Source of the DNA: a virus
Length of the DNA: 64,000 bases
Virus record (IMG/VR): IMGVR_UViG_3300036818_000127
Location: 1 to 64,000 of that record
Direction: 5' to 3' (one strand)
The notes beneath the pieces were generated by a model. It searched no databases, was not told the origin of the DNA, and saw only the letters and a program-made list of their open reading frames with translations. The position numbers and the translations under genes were made by a program. This document shows positions 37,678 to 46,512 of this stretch, in pieces. Positions within the stretch are counted from its first letter, which is position 1, and each line of letters begins with the position of its first letter.

Positions 37678-38403
37678 TTAATTCTCACGGATAGCAATCC
37701 AGCCAGCGAAATTAAGATAGCGCCAGAAACAGTCAATCTGCTGGAAACCAGCCATATGCAATAGTTCCTCATTCCACCTTGCTGTCACAGGCACAAGCAC
37801 ACCCTCTAATGAAAGCCTCTTTCGCTCAATAGCCTCTTGGGAGTAGCCATTTGTTGCCTTGAGAGCATAGTAATTCTTGACGAGCAGGGTATCAATCTCG
37901 GCGCTTGATCCCAGAAGCTTCTCAACAAGGATAAACACGCCGCCAGGGACAGTGTGCTTGAAGACCTCGCGGATGATCCGCTGGCGATACTCTATAGGAA
38001 CAAATTGAAGAGTCAGAATAGAAAGCGTGACACTTGCCTTCTCTGGCGGGTAGTCCTTCCGAAGATCAAGGGAACGGATAGAGGCATGTGGTTCTATCCA
38101 CCCATTTGAAAACCGATCACTTGCACACTGCAACATCGGCTGACTTACCTCAATCCCGACACATGTCGTCTGGTGCCAGAACTTCTCAACAAATGGAGCT
38201 AGGGCATCGCCGCGAGCACACCCAAGGTCAACAATAGCCGTATGGGGTTTCACGAAGGGAGAAGCAATATCGAACACAGATTGCCGCATCACCTCATATT
38301 GAGGGATAGAGCGAACAAGCATGTCCTCAAAGACATCTGTGACACTCTGGTCAAAATCCCATTTGGCATCTGTAGGCATGTGCCCTATACTATCTTTTGT
38401 CAT
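37678..38403 (-). CDS. CmoA-like carboxy-SAM synthase / SAM methyltransferase fold
   Basis: 241 residues. Class I SAM fold: motif I 'AIVDLGCARGDALAPF', acidic strand 'CVGIEVSQPM', motif IV region 'SVTLSILTLQFVPIEYRQ'. The pattern from there on closely parallels E. coli CmoA: 'GGVFILVEK', 'YYALKATNGYSQEAIERKRL', 'LHMAGFQQIDCFWRYLNFAG'. CmoA makes carboxy-S-adenosylmethionine from SAM and prephenate for tRNA cmo5U; the Arg in 'ERKRLSLE' matches the region of the carboxylate-binding Arg. Preceded by copy 3 of the 165-bp element. A simple methyltransferase is the alternative. Confidence 0.75.
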   Translation of the reverse strand: MTKDSIGHMPTDAKWDFDQSVTDVFEDMLVRSIPQYEVMRQSVFDIASPFVKPHTAIVDLGCARGDALAPFVEKFWHQTTCVGIEVSQPMLQCASDRFSNGWIEPHASIRSLDLRKDYPPEKASVTLSILTLQFVPIEYRQRIIREVFKHTVPGGVFILVEKLLGSSAEIDTLLVKNYYALKATNGYSQEAIERKRLSLEGVLVPVTARWNEELLHMAGFQQIDCFWRYLNFAGWIAIREN

Positions 38404-38413
38404 CGCTCTTTCC

Positions 38414-38578
38414 TACTTCAATTACTCTCTACTATTTGTAGAAAACTCTACAACTTTTTGGTTATGTACCCCAGGAAAGGGCCATACAACTAAGAGAGGA
38501 TAGATTACCCTACCTGACCATAAAACTTCCAGAATGGCACTACAGTGGCACCTGGTCCAATTGCTGGTTATACCCGTT
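38414..38578 (-). repeat. Dispersed 165-bp leader-like element, copy 3
   Basis: Minus-strand copy ending about 10 nt before the CmoA-like start. The first hairpin is imperfect here (ACATAAC / GTTGTAG) but the second is improved (TCTAC-AAATA-GTAGA). The 5' part of the element overlaps and encodes the last 13 residues of the SAM decarboxylase, so the element has inserted into, or been co-opted by, that gene's 3' end. Confidence 0.85.
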
Positions 38579-38938
38579 TCTTGGTGATCTATTTGCTCTC
38601 ATAATGAGATGAGCCTCAATATCATCTGTTTGGAAGATCTCTTTTGCAAAGGCAATTGCATCCTCCTGGCTAAATTCCTTGCAAGAGCAAATATCAATAT
38701 CAACCTCGCCGTGCTCCGGCCACGTATGCAGACTAACATGACTCTCTGCAATGATGACGAATCCTGATAGACCGGAATCTGCATAGCTCGGTGTTTGGAT
38801 ATTGTAGAGGGATGCTGGGCTTACCTTCTCCATCCCGATGCGAGAGGGATACTCATCAAGGATGCGGCGCATAAGTAATTCGTTACTCAGGATAGCTCGA
38901 TCAATATCGTACATTTCTAACATTAAGTGGATGAGCAT
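38540..38938 (-). CDS. speD: S-adenosylmethionine decarboxylase proenzyme
   Basis: 132 residues, AGGAGG upstream. 'SGLSGFVIIAESHVSLHTWP' and 'EHGEVDIDICSC' are the signature of bacterial/archaeal SpeD: autocleavage at E-S of 'AESH' makes the pyruvoyl cofactor; His of 'SLHTWPE' and Cys of 'ICSC' complete the site. Makes decarboxy-SAM, the aminopropyl donor for polyamines. No aminopropyltransferase is visible nearby. The C-terminal 13 residues come from the dispersed repeat. Confidence 0.88.
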   Translation of the reverse strand: MLIHLMLEMYDIDRAILSNELLMRRILDEYPSRIGMEKVSPASLYNIQTPSYADSGLSGFVIIAESHVSLHTWPEHGEVDIDICSCKEFSQEDAIAFAKEIFQTDDIEAHLIMRANRSPRNGYNQQLDQVPL

Positions 38939-38953
38939 GCTAGTTCTTTCCTC

Positions 38954-39466
38954 CTATAAAGATCCTGTCTTGAGTGCGTCGATTTTCCTCTGAAGATACC
39001 AGGAGAAAAACCCTTCATTTCTTTTTTGGAATTCAGGATCTTTCCAGGCATTGCCATCAATAGTGCCCCGACATTCAGGACTCCCACATTGACACTGCAT
39101 GCTCCAGACCCCATCATATCTCTCTGTTGTTTCATAATCGAAACATAGCTCTTCGCCTGCCAGGATATCACGGCGGGCAATGAATACCGTTTGGCCTTGC
39201 ACGCCGATATTCGGAGAGCAGCTATGATTCACCCCATAGGATTTCAGGTGGGGCACCCCGAGATAGACGTTATCACAAACATGATAGAAATTATCTGAGA
39301 TGGAGCGAGGAAAAGCATCAGTTTCCTCTTCAGTGATAATGTCCCCACCATATACAAAAGCGATTTCACCTTCTGGAATGAACTCTGTAGCAAAGAGGCC
39401 GATACCCTGGACAGGGCTGTTCTTGAATTCGCTCTTTGGCGAAAAGTAGGAATAATATTTATGCAT
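38954..39466 (-). CDS. SET-domain protein (protein lysine methyltransferase fold)
   Basis: 170 residues from ATG 39466 (AAGGAG upstream, overlapping the preceding stop). Shows SET motifs in order: 'GIGLFATEFIPEGEIAFVYG', 'YGVNHSCSPNIGVQG', 'DILAGEELCFDYETTERYDG' and the Cys-rich post-SET 'CQCGSPECRGTI'. Expected to methylate lysines using SAM. Most bacterial relatives have no known substrate. Here it sits among other SAM enzymes. Confidence 0.85.
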   Translation of the reverse strand: MHKYYSYFSPKSEFKNSPVQGIGLFATEFIPEGEIAFVYGGDIITEEETDAFPRSISDNFYHVCDNVYLGVPHLKSYGVNHSCSPNIGVQGQTVFIARRDILAGEELCFDYETTERYDGVWSMQCQCGSPECRGTIDGNAWKDPEFQKRNEGFFSWYLQRKIDALKTGSL

Positions 39467-40319
39467 TAGGAACTCCTTGGTGGATCTCACTAAAAAGACG
39501 GCGGTAAATGACAATAATTGCCTTCGCATGGCTTACATTGTACTTTGACTGAAGAAGCGTGTCATGCCACTCACGAAGTCCGCTGTTGATTTGCAATGGA
39601 CTATTTGTTCGGTACCATTTCCCACATTTCCAGAACTCAGGGAAGGCGCGGATAGCTAATCCCTTCTGGACAGGGATGTGGATATCATAGGATTTGCAAG
39701 AAAGAAGAAAGTCTATGAGGTCAGGATTGCGAAAGGAATCATAGATCTGTACCCCACATGAAAGTGCTGTTTTTATACAACTTATATCTGAACCACCTTC
39801 CCAAGCAAGCCATTCACGCCGCTTCTGCGTAAACCATTCCTCCCCATGTTCCTTGATACCTACAGAAAAAAAGCGAGATACGCCCCATAAGTCATCAGCA
39901 TTCATTGCGAATGATGCATCACGGTACCCATCATTAAAAGCTGCTTCTGCAAGATAGAGGAATGGATGCGCACATTGTATATGTATTTTTCTGAGTCTAC
40001 AGACAATTGGCAGCACACGGCGAATATCGGCAATGAGTGTTTCCTCATTCTGAGGGATTGAGACAATCGTATGGGGGATATCAAAGTACTTGCAGACAGA
40101 TCGAGAGACCTTTGCATCACTACTCTCACGGTTCCCTACCTGGAAGGTATAGCAGTGTGGTGGCTTATATCCGAGCGAGAGAATACCAGCAAGGTTTGTC
40201 ATACTATCAGTTCCGCCGCTTAGCATCAGCGGCATAGACACATAGGGCTTGATTGCCTCTTGGAACAGAGATCGGAATGTCTGCGCCTGCTGCTCTTGCT
40301 GTCTGCTCACTGCTCGCAT
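39459..40319 (-). CDS. Asparagine synthase-like PP-loop ATP pyrophosphatase
   Basis: 286 residues from ATG 40319, overlapping the methyltransferase stop. Has the PP-loop 'PLMLSGGTDSMTNLAGI', the adenylation-domain strand 'CYTFQVGNRESSDAKVSRSV' and 'SFAMNADDLWGVSRFFS' (D-D/E-L-W/F-G of asparagine synthases). There is no glutaminase domain, so it would use ammonia or another amine. Such proteins adenylate a carboxylate and couple an amine; a substrate made by the neighbouring enzymes is an attractive idea but unproven. Confidence 0.75.
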   Translation of the reverse strand: MRAVSRQQEQQAQTFRSLFQEAIKPYVSMPLMLSGGTDSMTNLAGILSLGYKPPHCYTFQVGNRESSDAKVSRSVCKYFDIPHTIVSIPQNEETLIADIRRVLPIVCRLRKIHIQCAHPFLYLAEAAFNDGYRDASFAMNADDLWGVSRFFSVGIKEHGEEWFTQKRREWLAWEGGSDISCIKTALSCGVQIYDSFRNPDLIDFLLSCKSYDIHIPVQKGLAIRAFPEFWKCGKWYRTNSPLQINSGLREWHDTLLQSKYNVSHAKAIIVIYRRLFSEIHQGVPNA

Positions 40320-41749
40320 TGATCTAGTATCCTCTCCTGTATCGTCTTGGCTACCTTTTCCATCATCACAGGAGGCACTGCACGGCCAAGTCGCTCCCAT
40401 TGCTGTGAATAGGTCCCTGTCAGAATAAAATCATCTGGAAATGCACAGATCCTCTTCAGTTCAGCAATAGAAAATTTCCGCTTCTCAGTTGGATGGGTAA
40501 CGCCAGCAGCAGCAGCAGGTGACCATGCAGTGCCAGCAGTCTGGGTGACAGTAGGGCATGGGCCATCAAGGGGTGCTCGCTGTAGAGAGAAGTATTTTTG
40601 ACTCTGTTCTCCAGGCTTTAATTTATCCCATTCCCTGCCGATTGCAAACTTGCTAATATCAGATTCAGGCTCAACAATCTGTTCCTCTATCCAGTGTGTT
40701 CCTACTGATCCAGATAAAACTGTTGGGCTCGGCTGGTCAGTAATATCGCTGCCATTACCAAAGGCCCCGCGATCATCACGGATAGCACGGATAGGGACAT
40801 GCTGTTCCTCGATATACCATTGCTGCATTGTCGTCAAGGTCGGAGAGGGAGTATCTGTAATGTCCCCCTTGCTATATTGAGGTTGGCCTTTTGCATCATG
40901 GATCGCACGTACAGGAATAGCTTCAATAAGGCTAGAAGGGGAAAGCCCATTTCCAAATGCTGGACTTGCGCCAATAGTGCCGCTAGGTGAGGTGGATGTA
41001 TCTCTCCATCCCTCTGTCCCGAATACTGGTCCAGCGCCTTGTCTGATGATCCAGGGCAATGCCTCACGTACTGTATAGGTATAAGGAAGTGGAGCCGGAT
41101 GGGCTGGCCTTATCTTGTACTGCTCAACAAGATCATTTCTCACACCGACAAAGATAAGGCGTTGGCGCATCTGGGGGACACCGAGCCACTGCGCATCAAG
41201 GATCTTGGCCTCAACAGTATAGCCACATGATTTTAGTTCCTTCAGTATCTCTAGGAAGTAGCCTTTAGCTGTCCCCTTCACAAGCCCGCTCACATTCTCA
41301 GCAACAAATACCTTTGGCTGTAATCCCTTGAGAAGTCGTACATATTCAAAGAAGAGATCATCAACCCGCTGGCGCGTATCACTGTAATCCTTGACTTTGC
41401 CCCAGCTTGCCTCACGCTTTCCAGCAGTTGAGAATGATGCACAGGGAGGACTTCCTTCAAAGACATCAAGCTCACCCTGATTTAGATGTATAGCTTTTAA
41501 AATCTCATCTGGTTTTATTTTACGGATATCACGCGCATCAAGAATAGAATGAGGATGATTAGCTTTATAGGTATCTCGTGCTGCTGGTATAAATTCATTT
41601 GCCCAAAGAATACGGTACCCTGCAAGACGGAATCCAAGGCAACTTCCGCCACACCCTGAGAATGTACTTACAACATTACGGCCATTCCATGGTATTTGTT
41701 CTATTTCCCTCATTGAAGGGACTCTGTAAGGAGGCTTGTCTTTTATCAT
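40307..41749 (-). CDS. DNA (cytosine-5) methyltransferase
   Basis: 480 residues from ATG 41749 (ATGA overlap with the ParB-like gene). Motifs in order: I 'VVSTFSGCGGSCLGFRLAG', IV 'EGSPPCASFS' with catalytic Cys, VI 'VFVAENVSGL', VIII 'GVPQMRQRLIFVG', and IX/X 'LGRAVPPVMMEKVAKTI'. The target-recognition part has three 'D-x-P-S/C-P-T' repeats (for example 'DITDTPSPTLTT'). It would methylate cytosine in phage DNA. No restriction partner is next to it, suggesting self-protection or base modification. Its neighbourhood of SAM-analogue enzymes raises the question whether it uses plain SAM. Confidence 0.92.
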   Translation of the reverse strand: MIKDKPPYRVPSMREIEQIPWNGRNVVSTFSGCGGSCLGFRLAGYRILWANEFIPAARDTYKANHPHSILDARDIRKIKPDEILKAIHLNQGELDVFEGSPPCASFSTAGKREASWGKVKDYSDTRQRVDDLFFEYVRLLKGLQPKVFVAENVSGLVKGTAKGYFLEILKELKSCGYTVEAKILDAQWLGVPQMRQRLIFVGVRNDLVEQYKIRPAHPAPLPYTYTVREALPWIIRQGAGPVFGTEGWRDTSTSPSGTIGASPAFGNGLSPSSLIEAIPVRAIHDAKGQPQYSKGDITDTPSPTLTTMQQWYIEEQHVPIRAIRDDRGAFGNGSDITDQPSPTVLSGSVGTHWIEEQIVEPESDISKFAIGREWDKLKPGEQSQKYFSLQRAPLDGPCPTVTQTAGTAWSPAAAAGVTHPTEKRKFSIAELKRICAFPDDFILTGTYSQQWERLGRAVPPVMMEKVAKTIQERILDQCEQ

Positions 41750-42342
41750 TTCGGCTTTCCAGACCATTGATAGCTGCATTTTGGGCAACAGTATTCTGTA
41801 TCGATACCTTCATCATAGCTCTTGAAATCATCTGGTGATTCCCTGCCATCATCCTCCTCATCTAGATAGGCATCCCCGAGCTTTTCTAACATCTGGCGGA
41901 GTGCTTCCCCGTCCGTCCCGAGACTTGCAAGATCAAACCCCGCCTGCTCCTGTTCCTCTAAGAGCTGGGCCAGGGACAATTCATCTGGTTCAGCTTTATT
42001 CCCTAAGTGATTGTCGCTAACCATATAGCCTTTGGCGTCTAATATGCTCCACTCTGGAGGTGCGATAACAACAGCCCAGCTATTGAGGTGAGCATACTTT
42101 GCAGGGTTTTCTGCATACAGTTCTTTTGCTGCCTCAGTGATTCCATGACCAGCAAGGATAATGTACTGTTCCTCGCCGACAGCCTGCTGGACGACAATGG
42201 GGCGCACCTGCTTGTACCTCATAAGTGAGGCTTTTAGGTCTGCAATTTGAGCAGGTGGATGTTGATTGTAGTTGGCCGGATGACCTTCAAGGCTATCAAG
42301 GGTTACTCTTTTGAATTGGACCTCATTGCTTGTTGCAGGCAT
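41746..42342 (-). CDS. ParB/Srx-fold nuclease-like protein
   Basis: 198 residues from ATG 42342 (GGAG 6 nt upstream; ATG 42411 is in frame but lies inside the terminator-like hairpin). 'VTLDSLEGHPANYNQHPPAQ', 'DLKASLMRYKQVRPIVVQ' and 'YIILAGHGITEAAKEL' form the ParB-N/sulfiredoxin fold (G-H-G replacing G-E-R). A C-terminal 'CCPKCSYQW' half zinc ribbon follows. Phages often pair such proteins with DNA methylases; role may be DNA recognition or nicking. Confidence 0.8.
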   Translation of the reverse strand: MPATSNEVQFKRVTLDSLEGHPANYNQHPPAQIADLKASLMRYKQVRPIVVQQAVGEEQYIILAGHGITEAAKELYAENPAKYAHLNSWAVVIAPPEWSILDAKGYMVSDNHLGNKAEPDELSLAQLLEEQEQAGFDLASLGTDGEALRQMLEKLGDAYLDEEDDGRESPDDFKSYDEGIDTEYCCPKCSYQWSGKPK

Positions 42343-42353
42343 GAATGTCTCCA

Positions 42354-42400
42354 TTAAAACAAAAAGGACACTTTTCAACCTCATAGTATGAGGGAAAAGC
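42354..42400 (-). terminator. Terminator-like hairpin before the ParB-like gene
   Basis: On the minus strand AGGCGCTTTTC pairs with GAAAAGTGTCC around an inner palindrome CCTCATA-C-TATGAGG (42379-42393), followed by TTTTTGTTTT. The sequence just upstream (ACATAACGCTTAGAC, 42421-42435) also precedes the terminator at 19.7 kb, so the two modules are related. Lying 18 nt before a start codon it could work as an attenuator. Confidence 0.65.
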
Positions 42401-42446
42401 GCCTGATGCATATTGCATTGTCTAAGCGTTATGTATTCTGTTTTTG

Positions 42447-42710
42447 TTAGTCTTGAGGCTGAGAAACTGCTACTCCGTTATACAAACCATACCTTTTACT
42501 TGGTCTTTTGTGTTTGTATGCTCTATTCGTTATGGAGTACGTCTTCGTACCCAGCCTCATCCCTTGGCCGTCATTCTGGAACTTAAATTCAACACGGCCA
42601 TGACCGCCCTCTCGCTCAATGAGGCGTTTACTGCTCTGGAGGTAGGCATACATCTCCAGGTCCTCATCGTTTGGTCCAGTCGGCAAGATTGAACTATTCT
42701 CTGAATCCAT
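42447..42710 (-). CDS. Small hypothetical protein
   Basis: 87 residues. 'LEMYAYLQSSKRLIEREGGH' and a basic C-terminal half ('RAYKHKRPSKRYGLY'). Unrecognised; basic half may bind nucleic acid. The 42711-42929 gap holds no gene that I can support. Confidence 0.6.
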   Translation of the reverse strand: MDSENSSILPTGPNDEDLEMYAYLQSSKRLIEREGGHGRVEFKFQNDGQGMRLGTKTYSITNRAYKHKRPSKRYGLYNGVAVSQPQD

Positions 42711-42929
42711 TGTATCCTATTCTTCTATGCTATAGGGACAATTATTCTAATAACAATGTAACATACGTTCGATATATAAATCAAGTGGACAAGCGGACAT
42801 GACACAAAAGAAGGAAGGGGTTTACCTCTAGATACTGAAATGTGTTGAAGAAATCAGAACTACGAGGTAGTTAGGAAGTACTCGGCCACGTTTATAGTAG
42901 AATCCCCTCCTGTCATCATCATAACATAT

Positions 42930-44159
42930 CTATAGTCTTTTGTTCATCAGCAAATGGACCCTACTCTTTTCTGCTACAATTTTGGGTATATGTTTTTCTA
43001 GAGAGAGTACAGTGCCGTGCTTCTGGAAAATATATTCTGAAACATCCATGTGCTCAAATACATAGGGCTTAAATACTGTATCCGATAAGTCCTCAACAAA
43101 ATAAGCCTTACTAGGCAAGTTCTCAATAAGAAGAGTAAATAATGCAGCATAGACACCAACAATCACCTGCATGCATGTTCCATTTGTGCCATTGGCAGCA
43201 AAGTTGAGTGCTGAATTAAAGTAGTATACTTTTTTATCATCATAGTCCAAGATGACACCAATATTATCTGAACCATTGATAGGGATGAGTATATTATCAC
43301 CATGAACAAGATCTGCATGACTGACATGATGTTTCCTGCTATAGATGTCATCCATATAATCCATTGTCTTCATGTGGATGGCATAGATGAATTGAGAGGG
43401 GATATCATACTTTTGTGCAATAGATACATTTTCATCATGCAGGATAATAAGTCCTTGGGGATAGGCATCCAGTTTCATAATAGGAGAGAGAAGAGGCTCC
43501 ATATCCATTCTATGTTTCAGTCCATTAGGGAAAAGTTCTCTAAGCTGATCTCTTCCGAGCATTATCCCGCTAGGGCTGCTGACTGCCTCGACTAGGAACT
43601 CATGAATAGACCATGTGATCGTAGGCATCCATTTTTCCCGAGCAGTTGACGTATCATATTCAAAATGGATAACCTCTCGCGGGACCCCATATTTTTCAAT
43701 GCCATACTGCACCCACATATTCACAACCCCTGGATTCATTCCAGTACAGAGAATATGAGGGGCACCTGTAAGTACCTCTTTCCTATCATAGATATCACGA
43801 ATAAGCTCTAAGCAGGATTGGTCATCATTATTCATGCATGCATTGACATAAGAGACATGAGCCTTATTTGTTGCTTCTAGGATAGGAAGTGAATCAGCAT
43901 CAGTCAGGTCCAGAACGATATCAATATGATACCTTTCGAGAATAGCAACGTAGTCAGCATAATCTGAGGTAAGTTCTTTTTGTATAAATGTGTAATCTAG
44001 CTTCTTGTGGTCAAGGCGTGGATTAACAAGAACACCATTAGACATATCAAGAAGAACGACTGTACCAAACATCTCTCTATAGAAAGGCAGATAGAGAAGG
44101 ACTGCATTAGAGATACTTCCAGAAGCACCAAGCAGCAGTAGGTTTTTTATTCTACTCAA
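42930..44159 (-). CDS. Homospermidine synthase/saccharopine dehydrogenase-like NAD(P)-dependent enzyme
   Basis: 409 residues from a TTG with AAGG 8 nt upstream, overlapping the HTH gene. Rossmann start 'NLLLLGASGSISNAVLLYL', acidic strand 'VVLLDM', and 'HIDIVLDLTDADSLPILEAT'. 'GMNPGVVNMWVQYGIEKYG' matches the 'G-x-N-P-G-x-V' motif of homospermidine and carboxynorspermidine synthases; 'INGSDNIGVILDYDDKKVYY' and 'NGTNGTCMQVIVGVYAA' resemble their C-terminal domain. Expected to join a polyamine to an aldehyde through a Schiff base and reduce it. Exact substrate not decided. Confidence 0.7.
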   Translation of the reverse strand: MSRIKNLLLLGASGSISNAVLLYLPFYREMFGTVVLLDMSNGVLVNPRLDHKKLDYTFIQKELTSDYADYVAILERYHIDIVLDLTDADSLPILEATNKAHVSYVNACMNNDDQSCLELIRDIYDRKEVLTGAPHILCTGMNPGVVNMWVQYGIEKYGVPREVIHFEYDTSTAREKWMPTITWSIHEFLVEAVSSPSGIMLGRDQLRELFPNGLKHRMDMEPLLSPIMKLDAYPQGLIILHDENVSIAQKYDIPSQFIYAIHMKTMDYMDDIYSRKHHVSHADLVHGDNILIPINGSDNIGVILDYDDKKVYYFNSALNFAANGTNGTCMQVIVGVYAALFTLLIENLPSKAYFVEDLSDTVFKPYVFEHMDVSEYIFQKHGTVLSLEKHIPKIVAEKSRVHLLMNKRL

Positions 44160-44374
44160 GAGCGTACCTTCTCCTTAATGATGCATGCTTCGATATCTTC
44201 TCTATTATAGAGTATTCGGTTACCGACAGGCTCAGTACGAACAGGATTTCTCTTCCTCTGTGATAGTCTCCTTATGTATTTTGGAGAGATCGGACGCTTA
44301 TATTTCAAGCTCAACAGTTCAGAGGCATCATGAGCAGAAATGTAGTCAGCAAGAGCGATGATTTTTCTTGGCAT
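44156..44374 (-). CDS. Excisionase-type helix-turn-helix protein
   Basis: 72 residues, GGAG upstream. 'YISAHDASELLSLKYKRPIS' plus 'RNPVRTEPVGNRILYNREDI' is a MerR/excisionase-like winged HTH. It is divergent from the integrase and next to it, so it is the best candidate for the recombination directionality factor or for the regulator of this island. Confidence 0.75.
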   Translation of the reverse strand: MPRKIIALADYISAHDASELLSLKYKRPISPKYIRRLSQRKRNPVRTEPVGNRILYNREDIEACIIKEKVRS

Positions 44375-44479: not shown

Positions 44480-44538
44480 GAGAGGGTCTAGGTACCGATT
44501 ATTTAAGATAATCAGTATCCAGACAAATGGAGGTACTC

Positions 44539-45549
44539 ATGGAATATGAAGTTATCCCTGTTCATTCCACTCTTGACCAAGTTGGGCAAAGTGAGAATGT
44601 CATCTCAGCAAACAATGCTTTTAAGGACTATCATGACAGGATAGACCCAAATACTTTTGCACGTCAAAGTTATGACATGGCACTCTTTTGCGCATTTATT
44701 GCAAGCAAGAAAGTGCTAGTAGACAAAGATGAGCTATTATCCAGTCCCAGAGCATGGTTAGATATCACTCACGGAATGATTGACAGCTTTGCAAAATGGA
44801 TGATAGAAGAAGGCTTTGCTATAGGCTCAATAAATATACGTTTATCTACTGTAAAGACGTACTTCAAGCTTGCTTCTAGAGCAGGCTATATTCAACCTGA
44901 TGAAGCAGTAAAAGCCCATTTTGTAAAAGGGTACAGCTACAAGCAAGGGCTAAACGTTGATGAACGAAGGGAGATAAAGCGCAAGGATAAGAGCAAGAAA
45001 GCTGAGCCCATACCATTAACAAAAGAGCAAACGGATCTACTTAAAAAGCATCCAAATACACCACAAGGGCGACGTGATGCCTTGCTTATGTGCTTGCTCT
45101 TAGATCATGGTTTACGATGTGGGGAGGTTGCAGACCTTACACGTGCCAATATTCAACTTACCTCTGGAATACTTACCTTTCATAGGGAGAAAACCAAAGA
45201 AGAGGATAAGCATAAACTCACGAATGATACATTGGTTGCCCTCATGAGGTACTTTGAAGTCTACCATCCAACTGGCAAGCTCATAGCTGGCAGCCATAGG
45301 AGCGGCCAACTTATGGGGGAAATGAGCAGAAGAGCCATAACTAAGCGTGTACAAGTCTTAGGGGAGCAGATACTTGGGATAAAGAATCTCTCAGCGCATG
45401 ATTGCAGACACGCTTGGGTGGAAGCTGCCATACGAGGGGGAACCAATATCAAGACGCTCCAACAAGCGGGTGGCTGGTCAAGTCCCGCTATGCCACTGAG
45501 ATACGCCGCAAAGGCTGAAATTTCAAATGAAGGAGTAAAACTAGGATGA
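44539..45549 (+). CDS. Tyrosine recombinase/integrase
   Basis: 336 residues from ATG 44539 (GGAGG 6 nt upstream; the ATG at 44527 overlaps that site). SAM-like core-binding domain over residues 15-120, catalytic domain after 155: 'DHGLRCGEVADL' (Arg I), 'KTKEEDKHKLT' (Lys), 'SAHDCRHAWVEAA' (H-x-x-R), 'GGWSS' (His/Trp position is Trp) and 'RYAAKAE' (nucleophile Tyr). XerC/D-like. Catalyses integration or resolves dimers. Last codon overlaps the next start (ATGA). Confidence 0.92.
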   Translation: MEYEVIPVHSTLDQVGQSENVISANNAFKDYHDRIDPNTFARQSYDMALFCAFIASKKVLVDKDELLSSPRAWLDITHGMIDSFAKWMIEEGFAIGSINIRLSTVKTYFKLASRAGYIQPDEAVKAHFVKGYSYKQGLNVDERREIKRKDKSKKAEPIPLTKEQTDLLKKHPNTPQGRRDALLMCLLLDHGLRCGEVADLTRANIQLTSGILTFHREKTKEEDKHKLTNDTLVALMRYFEVYHPTGKLIAGSHRSGQLMGEMSRRAITKRVQVLGEQILGIKNLSAHDCRHAWVEAAIRGGTNIKTLQQAGGWSSPAMPLRYAAKAEISNEGVKLG

Positions 45550-45921: not shown

Positions 45922-45962
45922 TTTATTATCAAACAAAAGTACAGGTCCACCTAGCTCTTGTT

Positions 45963-45986
45963 TTGCCGCCAGAGAGAAGGCGGCAA
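45963..45986 (+). terminator. Hairpin in the sigma factor leader
   Basis: Perfect 8-bp stem TTGCCGCC / GGCGGCAA with an 8-nt purine loop, followed by ATTTCTT, 20 nt before the ATG. May attenuate transcription or shield the ribosome site. Confidence 0.6.
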
Positions 45987-46005
45987 ATTTCTTGAAAGGA
46001 CAGCA

Positions 46006-46512
46006 ATGATTGATGAATTCCTAGAAAATGCTAAAAATGGAGAGCATGAGGCGCTGAGTGAGATCTATCGGCATTTCTTTCCTAAGATATTTCATTTTAT
46101 CCTAAAAAGGGTGGGTTTTCATGAAACAGCAGAAGATCTCACCTCAGAGGTTTTTATTCAAATGCTCAAACATATCCGTCTATTTAAATCAGAAAATGCT
46201 ATGGCGTTTCACAAGTGGCTTTATCAGATTGCGAGGGCAGTGATAGCAGAGCATTACAGAAAAAGAAAAGATATACTCTCACTTGAACAGAATGATGAGA
46301 GCATCTTCGATGAAATCGCCCAGCATGAGGCATGGCTGGATCTTGTCCAAGGAATCAACAAGCTCCAAGACTCGCACCGTCAACTCATTATCGACCGCTT
46401 TATTTTAGGGTATAATCAGGCAACCATCGCAAGGCTTACAGGAAAGAAAGAGGGTACAATTAGAGTAACTGAATATCGTGCAACACAAAATCTACGAAAA
46501 TTGATACGTTGA
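46006..46512 (+). CDS. ECF-type RNA polymerase sigma factor
   Basis: 168 residues from ATG 46006 (GAAAGGAC upstream). Region 2: 'SEIYRHFFPKIFHFILKRVG', 'AEDLTSEVFIQMLKHI', 'FHKWLYQIARAVIAEHYRKR'. Region 4: 'QLIIDRFILGYNQATIARLT' and 'KKEGTIRVTEYRATQNLRK'. No anti-sigma gene follows. A phage-encoded sigma could redirect host polymerase to late genes; the 165-bp dispersed elements are possible targets. Confidence 0.88.
   Translation: MIDEFLENAKNGEHEALSEIYRHFFPKIFHFILKRVGFHETAEDLTSEVFIQMLKHIRLFKSENAMAFHKWLYQIARAVIAEHYRKRKDILSLEQNDESIFDEIAQHEAWLDLVQGINKLQDSHRQLIIDRFILGYNQATIARLTGKKEGTIRVTEYRATQNLRKLIR

Follow-up and report, generated by a model that had tools for sequence, protein, structure and literature searches.

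A probable viral cytosine-carboxymethylation island that may carry its own polyamine supply

Which chemical group does a virus place on its DNA when genes for remodelling S-adenosylmethionine (SAM), making polyamines and modifying cytosine lie side by side? The question is raised by a gene island on the minus strand, read from 44374 to 37678, of a window of 64,000 bases (the whole stretch of DNA analysed here, bases 1-64000 of the 109,417-base IMG/VR record IMGVR_UViG_3300036818_000127, a contig that may be incomplete). We propose that the island hypermodifies cytosine by a CmoA-CmoX-CmoY system and also provides the polyamine for it, which would yield a polyamine-amide of 5-carboxymethylcytosine (5cxmC), and we put the probability of this reading at about 0.5. 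A first-pass annotation, made from the sequence alone, had named seven of the genes and proposed that they attach a carboxymethyl- or polyamine-derived group to cytosine. All seven were found on the minus strand, at or near the coordinates it gave, by Pfam, PHROG and PDB profile matches. The features of the island, with functions as predicted, are as follows.

37678..38403, minus strand: CmoA, carboxy-SAM synthase (E. coli CmoA 4gek 3e-30, residues 14-239; phrog_4752 4e-70; Pfam methyltransferase)
38540..38938, minus strand: SpeD, homologue of the pyruvoyl class 1b SAM (AdoMet) decarboxylases (PF02675 1e-24)
38954..39466, minus strand: SET-domain N-methyltransferase with post-SET cysteines (PF00856 9e-14; NHSCSPN, FDY, CQCGSPEC)
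39459..40400, minus strand: CmoY, Q-class ATP-dependent amide ligase of AsnB fold (PF00733 3e-7; AlphaFold; class-specific residues)
40307..41788, minus strand: CmoX, DNA cytosine C5-carboxymethyltransferase (PF00145 8e-59; SPPC motif; 40% identity to S-B43 CmoX)
40382..40384, minus strand: Arg469 codon (RLGRAVPP) in motif X of CmoX, aligned to SpCmoX R350
41746..42411, minus strand: ParB-like protein with C-terminal zinc ribbon, overlapping CmoX (phrog_620 7e-22)
42447..42710, minus strand: 87-aa protein, no match
42930..44159, minus strand: divergent homospermidine synthase (HSS), a dehydrogenase-like protein (family profile against PDB HSS 5e-16; AlphaFold)
44156..44374, minus strand: small helix-turn-helix (HTH) protein, divergent from the integrase at 44527 (PF12728, weak)

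The core of the island has a published counterpart (December 2025, Nat Commun; PMC12783734). In phage S-B43, CmoX uses the carboxy-SAM made by CmoA to carboxymethylate C5 of cytosines within GC motifs, and the AsnB-like ligase CmoY then adds glycine to the carboxymethylated base (PMC12783734). The key residue of CmoX (R350 in SpCmoX) replaces the Asn of ordinary enzymes (M.HhaI N304) and binds the carboxylate of carboxy-SAM, and wild-type CmoX accepts carboxy-SAM only (PMC12783734). The window CmoX has the SPPC motif, and its Arg469 aligns to R350. CmoX and CmoA loci were gathered from IMG/VR in two scans, giving 154 loci besides the window (80 CmoX loci in the first scan). The motif X Arg occurs in 92/92 CmoX gathered, three of which were missed by the pattern and read by eye (two from Erwinia phage records); the contrast with ordinary enzymes is M.HhaI N304 from PMC12783734, not a control of our own. 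Mcat8 was ruled out as a CmoA-free phage control for this residue, being itself a CmoX phage. Of the 80 first-scan loci, 76 have CmoA and 73 have a ParB-like gene located upstream of CmoX. Thus, CmoA, CmoX and ParB form a conserved unit, in the window as elsewhere. The window CmoA keeps the Arg aligned to EcCmoA R199 (KR in AIERKRLSLEGV), which we take to be a residue characteristic of CmoA.

By the CmoX Arg, the nearby CmoA and the adjoining AsnB-like ligase, the window belongs to the CmoA-CmoX-CmoY system, and carboxymethylation of cytosine by its CmoX is very probable. The earlier idea that carboxy-SAM supplies a carboxymethyl group to cytosine, to which a PP-loop ligase then joins an amine, is strongly supported, as it matches the S-B43 system and the CmoX Arg is present; given PMC12783734, it is no longer new. 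New here are the ligase class and the extra genes beside the known core. The expectation that the seven genes recur as one set across phages stands for CmoA, CmoX and ParB and falls for SpeD, HSS and SET, which form an added module.

With S-B43 the window shares CmoA, a CmoX with SPPC and the motif X Arg, an AsnB-like ligase without a glutaminase domain and a co-directional cluster; the ParB-like gene stands beside CmoX as in many CmoX contigs. The window differs in its ligase, which is of another class (26% identity, conserved Glu and His replaced), in the addition of SpeD, HSS and SET, and in gene order. A ParB-CmoX-CmoA-ligase neighbourhood like that of the window is also found in Pseudomonas phage PaBG and Streptomyces phage TurkishDelight (the latter with the nearest annotated relative of the window CmoX; 47% identity, tblastn), although the PaBG ligase is of the E-class defined below, the TurkishDelight ligase has a glutaminase domain, and polyamine genes are in neither annotated neighbourhood.

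Some observations on CmoA and CmoX elsewhere stand apart from this comparison. One locus (L164:6957-10678) has CmoA with no CmoX detected nearby and an N6/N4 DNA methylase (PF01555) a few genes upstream; two others (L213:7907-10684 and L201) have CmoA, again with no CmoX detected nearby, and directly upstream a 530-aa protein with ParB and apparent class I methyltransferase domains. These proteins are possible carboxymethyltransferases of another type, of which none was found in PMC12783734. The nearest phage-record CmoA (47% identity), that of Alcaligenes phage Afa-NA1 (L007:9962-10714), has no CmoX annotated within 10 kb and lies near thymidylate synthase-like and dTMP kinase-like genes. Erwinia phage CmoX genes (L010:23986-26115 and L011:21410-23539) carry an apparent intein-like insert, ending in VVHN, just ahead of the catalytic Cys.

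The nature of the coupled amine turns on the ligase. The window CmoY has a PP-loop (SGGTDS) and the conserved Lys of PVQK, and its AlphaFold model (predicted local distance difference test, pLDDT, 90.8) has AsnB (1ct9) and beta-lactam synthetase as best fold matches; amidation by this enzyme is quite probable. An N-terminal glutaminase (GATase) domain, present in locus L008, was not found in it by Pfam scan, and CmoY should therefore draw on a free amine and not on ammonia released from glutamine. In an alignment of 20 stand-alone ligases, from which we drew two classes, 14 (the E-class, including the S-B43 glycine enzyme) have KxxxEC, NKPxQK and H.NLQ, and mostly a His ending SKKAMIH. In the other six (the Q/H-class, here Q-class: the window, L019, L040, L170, L171 and L159) Q or H replaces the E-class Glu, the His of the SKKAMIH end is lost, YRxNxxLQxxSGxREWHD is common to all, and in 5/6 the PY motif is preceded by an acidic residue. 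The window CmoY is without the residues that the E-class has in common with the S-B43 glycine ligase and has Q, N and H instead: the Glu of KxxxEC is Gln, the His of H.NLQ is lost and the Asn of NKP is His, and an Asp is gained before the PY motif. All the other Q-class loci have a CmoA cluster, and CmoX is present in all except the truncated L159. The Q-class is rare. Single-protein patterns found no close relatives of the window ligase in viral contigs, and a ligase-clade scan of viral contigs returned only two loci, both already known. The two classes probably bind different amines, and judging from the active-site differences the amine of the window enzyme is likely not glycine. Other ligase clusters were reported to have distinct active sites, with their amines left open (PMC12783734).

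A source of such an amine may be encoded upstream. A single-protein search with the window HSS barely reaches solved homospermidine synthases (about 16-18% identity) and the Pfam match is weak, yet the profile of its family matches them at 5e-16. The catalytic residues of Blastochloris viridis HSS (BvHSS) are N162, E210, W229, E237, H296, E298, Y323 and D361, and the N162D enzyme is inactive (PMC4725965). All eight are present in the window protein (N142, E167, W183, E191, H241, E243, Y259 and D298) and are invariant in 23 aligned family members; the NPG Asn and TWS Trp are of the HSS type. Its AlphaFold model (pLDDT 92.8) has a TM score of 0.75 to HSS 6y87, with carboxyspermidine dehydrogenase close (0.71), so that the protein shares with BvHSS its fold as well. 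Given the profile match and the catalytic residues, we conclude by sequence that this is a real but divergent homospermidine synthase, with predicted activity from putrescine to homospermidine. The glutamate of the BvHSS pore (E117, the ionic slide) is not conserved: the aligned position is Asn in the window, and members of the family from phage and archaea have no Glu there. The substrate entrance may thus differ, which would affect entry and not chemistry. Known phage counterparts are the HSS of RSL1 and Motura (PMC9992855). Relatives of the window protein occur in 57 genome loci, nearest in DPANN archaea and the Candidate Phyla Radiation (41-55% identity for DPANN archaea, Parcubacteria and Verrucomicrobia and 24-30% for Bacilli, over the best tblastn segment). 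None was found in viral contigs, either by single-protein patterns or by family alignments, or in phage records by tblastn, and in plasmids there was one (Niallia taxi).

SpeD matches the Thermotoga maritima AdoMet decarboxylase at 6e-11 and keeps catalytic S63, H68 and C83 along with W70, P71 and E72. Class 1b is marked by one conserved Pro, without specification of which Pro is meant; P71 is kept and the Pro aligned to T. maritima P51 is lost. The SpeDC ornithine decarboxylases have diagnostic Gln, Thr, Phe and Tyr in their central region (PMC10407285). In the window protein this region (ESHVSLHTWPEHGEVDIDICSC) is without Gln, Phe and Tyr, the columns of the criterion being approximate, and we rejected ornithine as its substrate; arginine is a possible one. 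Likelier, on sequence, is an AdoMet decarboxylase feeding the spermidine synthase of the host. The gap noted at first pass, that no aminopropyltransferase is visible, is borne out by a PF01564 search of the whole contig, subject to the contig being complete, and a hidden enzyme of this kind was rejected on that search. Single-protein patterns found no close relatives of SpeD in viral contigs; 134 phage records have SpeD-like matches.

The SET protein has the NHSxxPN, GEExxxDY and post-SET Cys cluster of SET lysine methyltransferases. The start first assigned to it (39529) was replaced by a likely start at 39466, which overlaps the CmoY stop (ATGCATAA) and has AGGAG upstream; by this arrangement SET is translationally coupled to CmoY. 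SET genes also lie within HSS loci of about 17 kb in Woesearchaeota (L100), Fictibacillus (L108), Gottfriedia (L109), Paenibacillus (L121), Clostridiaceae (L132) and Peribacillus (L147), as well as in the HSS locus of Niallia (L092). With 46 SET genes in the 49 genomes searched, six HSS-SET pairs were seen where 0.26 are expected (Poisson P 3.5e-7, a value that counts related genomes as independent, so that the true figure is weaker). In the sequence covered, these HSS-SET neighbourhoods lie outside a phage DNA-modification context, and their SET proteins might methylate polyamines. SpeD homologues, two adjacent ones found by phmmer, flank HSS in L095 (with an arginase-family gene) and in L139, and genes resembling saccharopine dehydrogenase or carboxyspermidine dehydrogenase follow HSS in L096, L097, L123 and L143. 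Thus, HSS, SET and SpeD belong to a polyamine setting that exists without CmoX, and this phage has added them to its CmoX operon.

Other loci suggest that ligases of this kind may be accompanied by a supply of their amine. In L170 and L159 a DegT/DnrJ aminotransferase directly follows the Q-class CmoY, at the place that SET and SpeD occupy in the window, whose HSS lies upstream; L019, L040 and L171 have no such genes nearby. The L170 run (L170:4820-10693, IMGVR_UViG_3300028840_004217) encodes CmoX, CmoY, the aminotransferase, a myo-inositol-1-phosphate synthase, a uracil-DNA glycosylase-like protein and CmoA, which suggests an aminocyclitol (inosamine-like) amide of 5cxmC as product, and L159 (L159:48-2729; CmoY, aminotransferase, CmoA) suggests an amino-sugar amide. 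Relatives of the L170 and L159 aminotransferase and of the inositol-1-phosphate synthase are in no other of the 154 loci. In the E-class Erwinia phage pEa_SNUABM_3 the stretch from CmoA to the ligase (L010:3253-8131) includes a 420-aa protein without a Pfam match, a DUF1611 protein and an alanine-racemase-like protein, and the ligase possibly joins a D-amino acid; Erwinia phage Y3 (L011) has a 2-oxoglutarate-Fe(II) oxygenase at the corresponding place. With aminotransferase and racemase-like genes beside it, the ligase tends to travel with possible amine-making enzymes, which by analogy points to co-encoded enzymes as the source of the amine.

We predict the following route. CmoA would turn SAM into carboxy-SAM, from which CmoX, guided or helped by the ParB-like protein, would place a carboxymethyl group on cytosine C5. 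The Q-class CmoY would then activate the 5cxmC carboxylate by ATP and couple a free amine other than glycine. The likeliest candidate is a polyamine of the homospermidine/putrescine type that HSS and SpeD would produce or replenish, and SET possibly N-methylates its aminobutyl end, which resembles lysine. The resulting amide of 5cxmC would carry positive charge, and would thereby offset the charge of the DNA, and would protect it from restriction. The CmoA and CmoX chemistry is demonstrated in relatives and is transferred to the window by sequence. For the amine as a polyamine and for the parts of SpeD and SET, gene context and analogy are the only guides: that the coupled amine is a polyamine is close to an even chance, a part for SpeD in the modification would follow from the same context, and action of SET on the coupled amine is rather unlikely. 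A polyamine-decorated phage pyrimidine has a precedent in alpha-putrescinylthymine of Delftia phage phiW-14, a thymine formed via 5-hydroxymethyl-dU, whereas the product here would be a cytosine formed via carboxy-SAM by other enzymes.

The proposal of a polyamine-derived group, present in outline in the first-pass annotation, draws on the operon context, the divergent ligase active site and the two analogous loci, and is not demonstrated. In its favour we also count the overlap of SET with CmoY, the position of SpeD 15 bases further on, the complete catalytic set of HSS, and the polyamine-related and SET genes beside relatives of HSS. Several points weigh against it. None of SpeD, HSS and SET occurs in the 154 other CmoA/CmoX loci, so that a single genome, aided by analogy, carries the polyamine link, and the nearest CmoY relatives (L019 and L040) are without them in the sequence covered. 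HSS, behind a 220-base gap upstream of ParB, might be a separate unit. SpeD resembles AdoMet decarboxylase more than ornithine decarboxylase, with no aminopropyltransferase on the contig. The active-site differences are taken from alignments and not from a liganded structure, and the Q-class distinction was drawn after the data were seen. The island could instead be an ordinary CmoA-CmoX-CmoY one, with an amino acid, ammonia or some other amine of the host as substrate of the ligase. SpeD, HSS and SET would then be unrelated auxiliaries, which either modify a protein or increase the free polyamines available for packaging and translation. SpeD or HSS alone is common in phages (PMC9992855), as the SpeD-like matches in phage records also indicate, and none of the three added genes accompanies CmoX elsewhere. 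We consider this unlikely, though it is a serious contender, as SET and SpeD lie between CmoY and CmoA with SET overlapping the CmoY stop codon, the ligase has lost residues that the glycine ligase has in common with its relatives, and other Q-class loci have amine-making genes at the same place. Plain 5-methylcytosine made by a methyltransferase with unrelated neighbours, for which membership of the C5 family speaks, is very improbable; we rejected this product on the motif X Arg, with which SpCmoX accepts carboxy-SAM only (PMC12783734), and CmoA lies in the same co-directional cluster.

The polyamine genes themselves allow other routes. SpeD could be an arginine or ornithine decarboxylase, in which case SpeD and HSS would form a complete route from amino acid to homospermidine and the aminopropyltransferase would be no gap. 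SpeD without SpeE is a published sign of such enzymes (PMC10407285), a Nanoarchaeota HSS relative adjoins a SpeD homologue and an arginase-family (agmatinase-like) gene, and the window protein has no Pro at the position of T. maritima P51, but the SpeDC signature is lacking (no Gln or Tyr in the central region) and W70, P71 and E72 are kept, as expected for SAM binding. The odds are somewhat against this possibility, which is compatible with the polyamine-amide reading and would refine it. HSS might instead act directly on DNA, with CmoY attaching a small amine (e.g., putrescine or a diamino acid), HSS adding an aminobutyl group to this base-linked amine, much as deoxyhypusine synthase does to a protein lysine, and SET methylating the result. 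HSS enzymes transfer an aminobutyl group to a primary amine, and the altered E117 position may change the entrance, but the catalytic pocket is that of an enzyme for free diamines, and HSS relatives in Bacilli and DPANN archaea have no CmoX module in the surrounding 17 kb or so. We regard action on DNA as improbable.

If the polyamine-amide reading is true, the island would form a cationic DNA base via carboxy-SAM, distinct from hydroxymethyl-based hypermodification and of use in DNA labelling, and would allow a SET enzyme to be tried on a small polyamine (the HSS-SET pair also being found in archaea and Bacilli). We tentatively predict, with slightly less than even odds, that the cytosines carry a homospermidine, spermidine or putrescine amide (perhaps methylated by SET) and that Q-class ligases generally come with their own amine-making genes. 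Should this rule hold, the genes beside a ligase would name its amine, answering the question left by the 2025 paper.

The order of transcription is HTH, HSS, the 87-aa orphan, ParB, CmoX, CmoY, SET, SpeD and CmoA. HTH and HSS overlap by 4 bases, ParB overlaps CmoX and CmoX overlaps CmoY; 136 bases separate SpeD from CmoA. Promoter and terminator scans gave counts no higher than in shuffled sequence, and an Rfam search gave no match. The source is a bacterial or archaeal virus: genes for a portal, a capsid, a prohead protease and a terminase lie inside the window, and a family A DNA polymerase is encoded on the same contig beyond it. A tyrosine integrase (44527-45549) adjoins the island, and next to it is a phage-encoded sigma-70 family sigma factor (45958-46512; regions 2 and 4 only, like those of the extracytoplasmic function type). 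Further along the contig, a haem-NO-binding (H-NOX) protein adjoins a histidine kinase (L003:1771-3788, contig 65771-67788), and a TnpB-like protein with a Cas12f1-like TNB domain is encoded close to the contig end (L005:1024-2715, contig 105024-106715).

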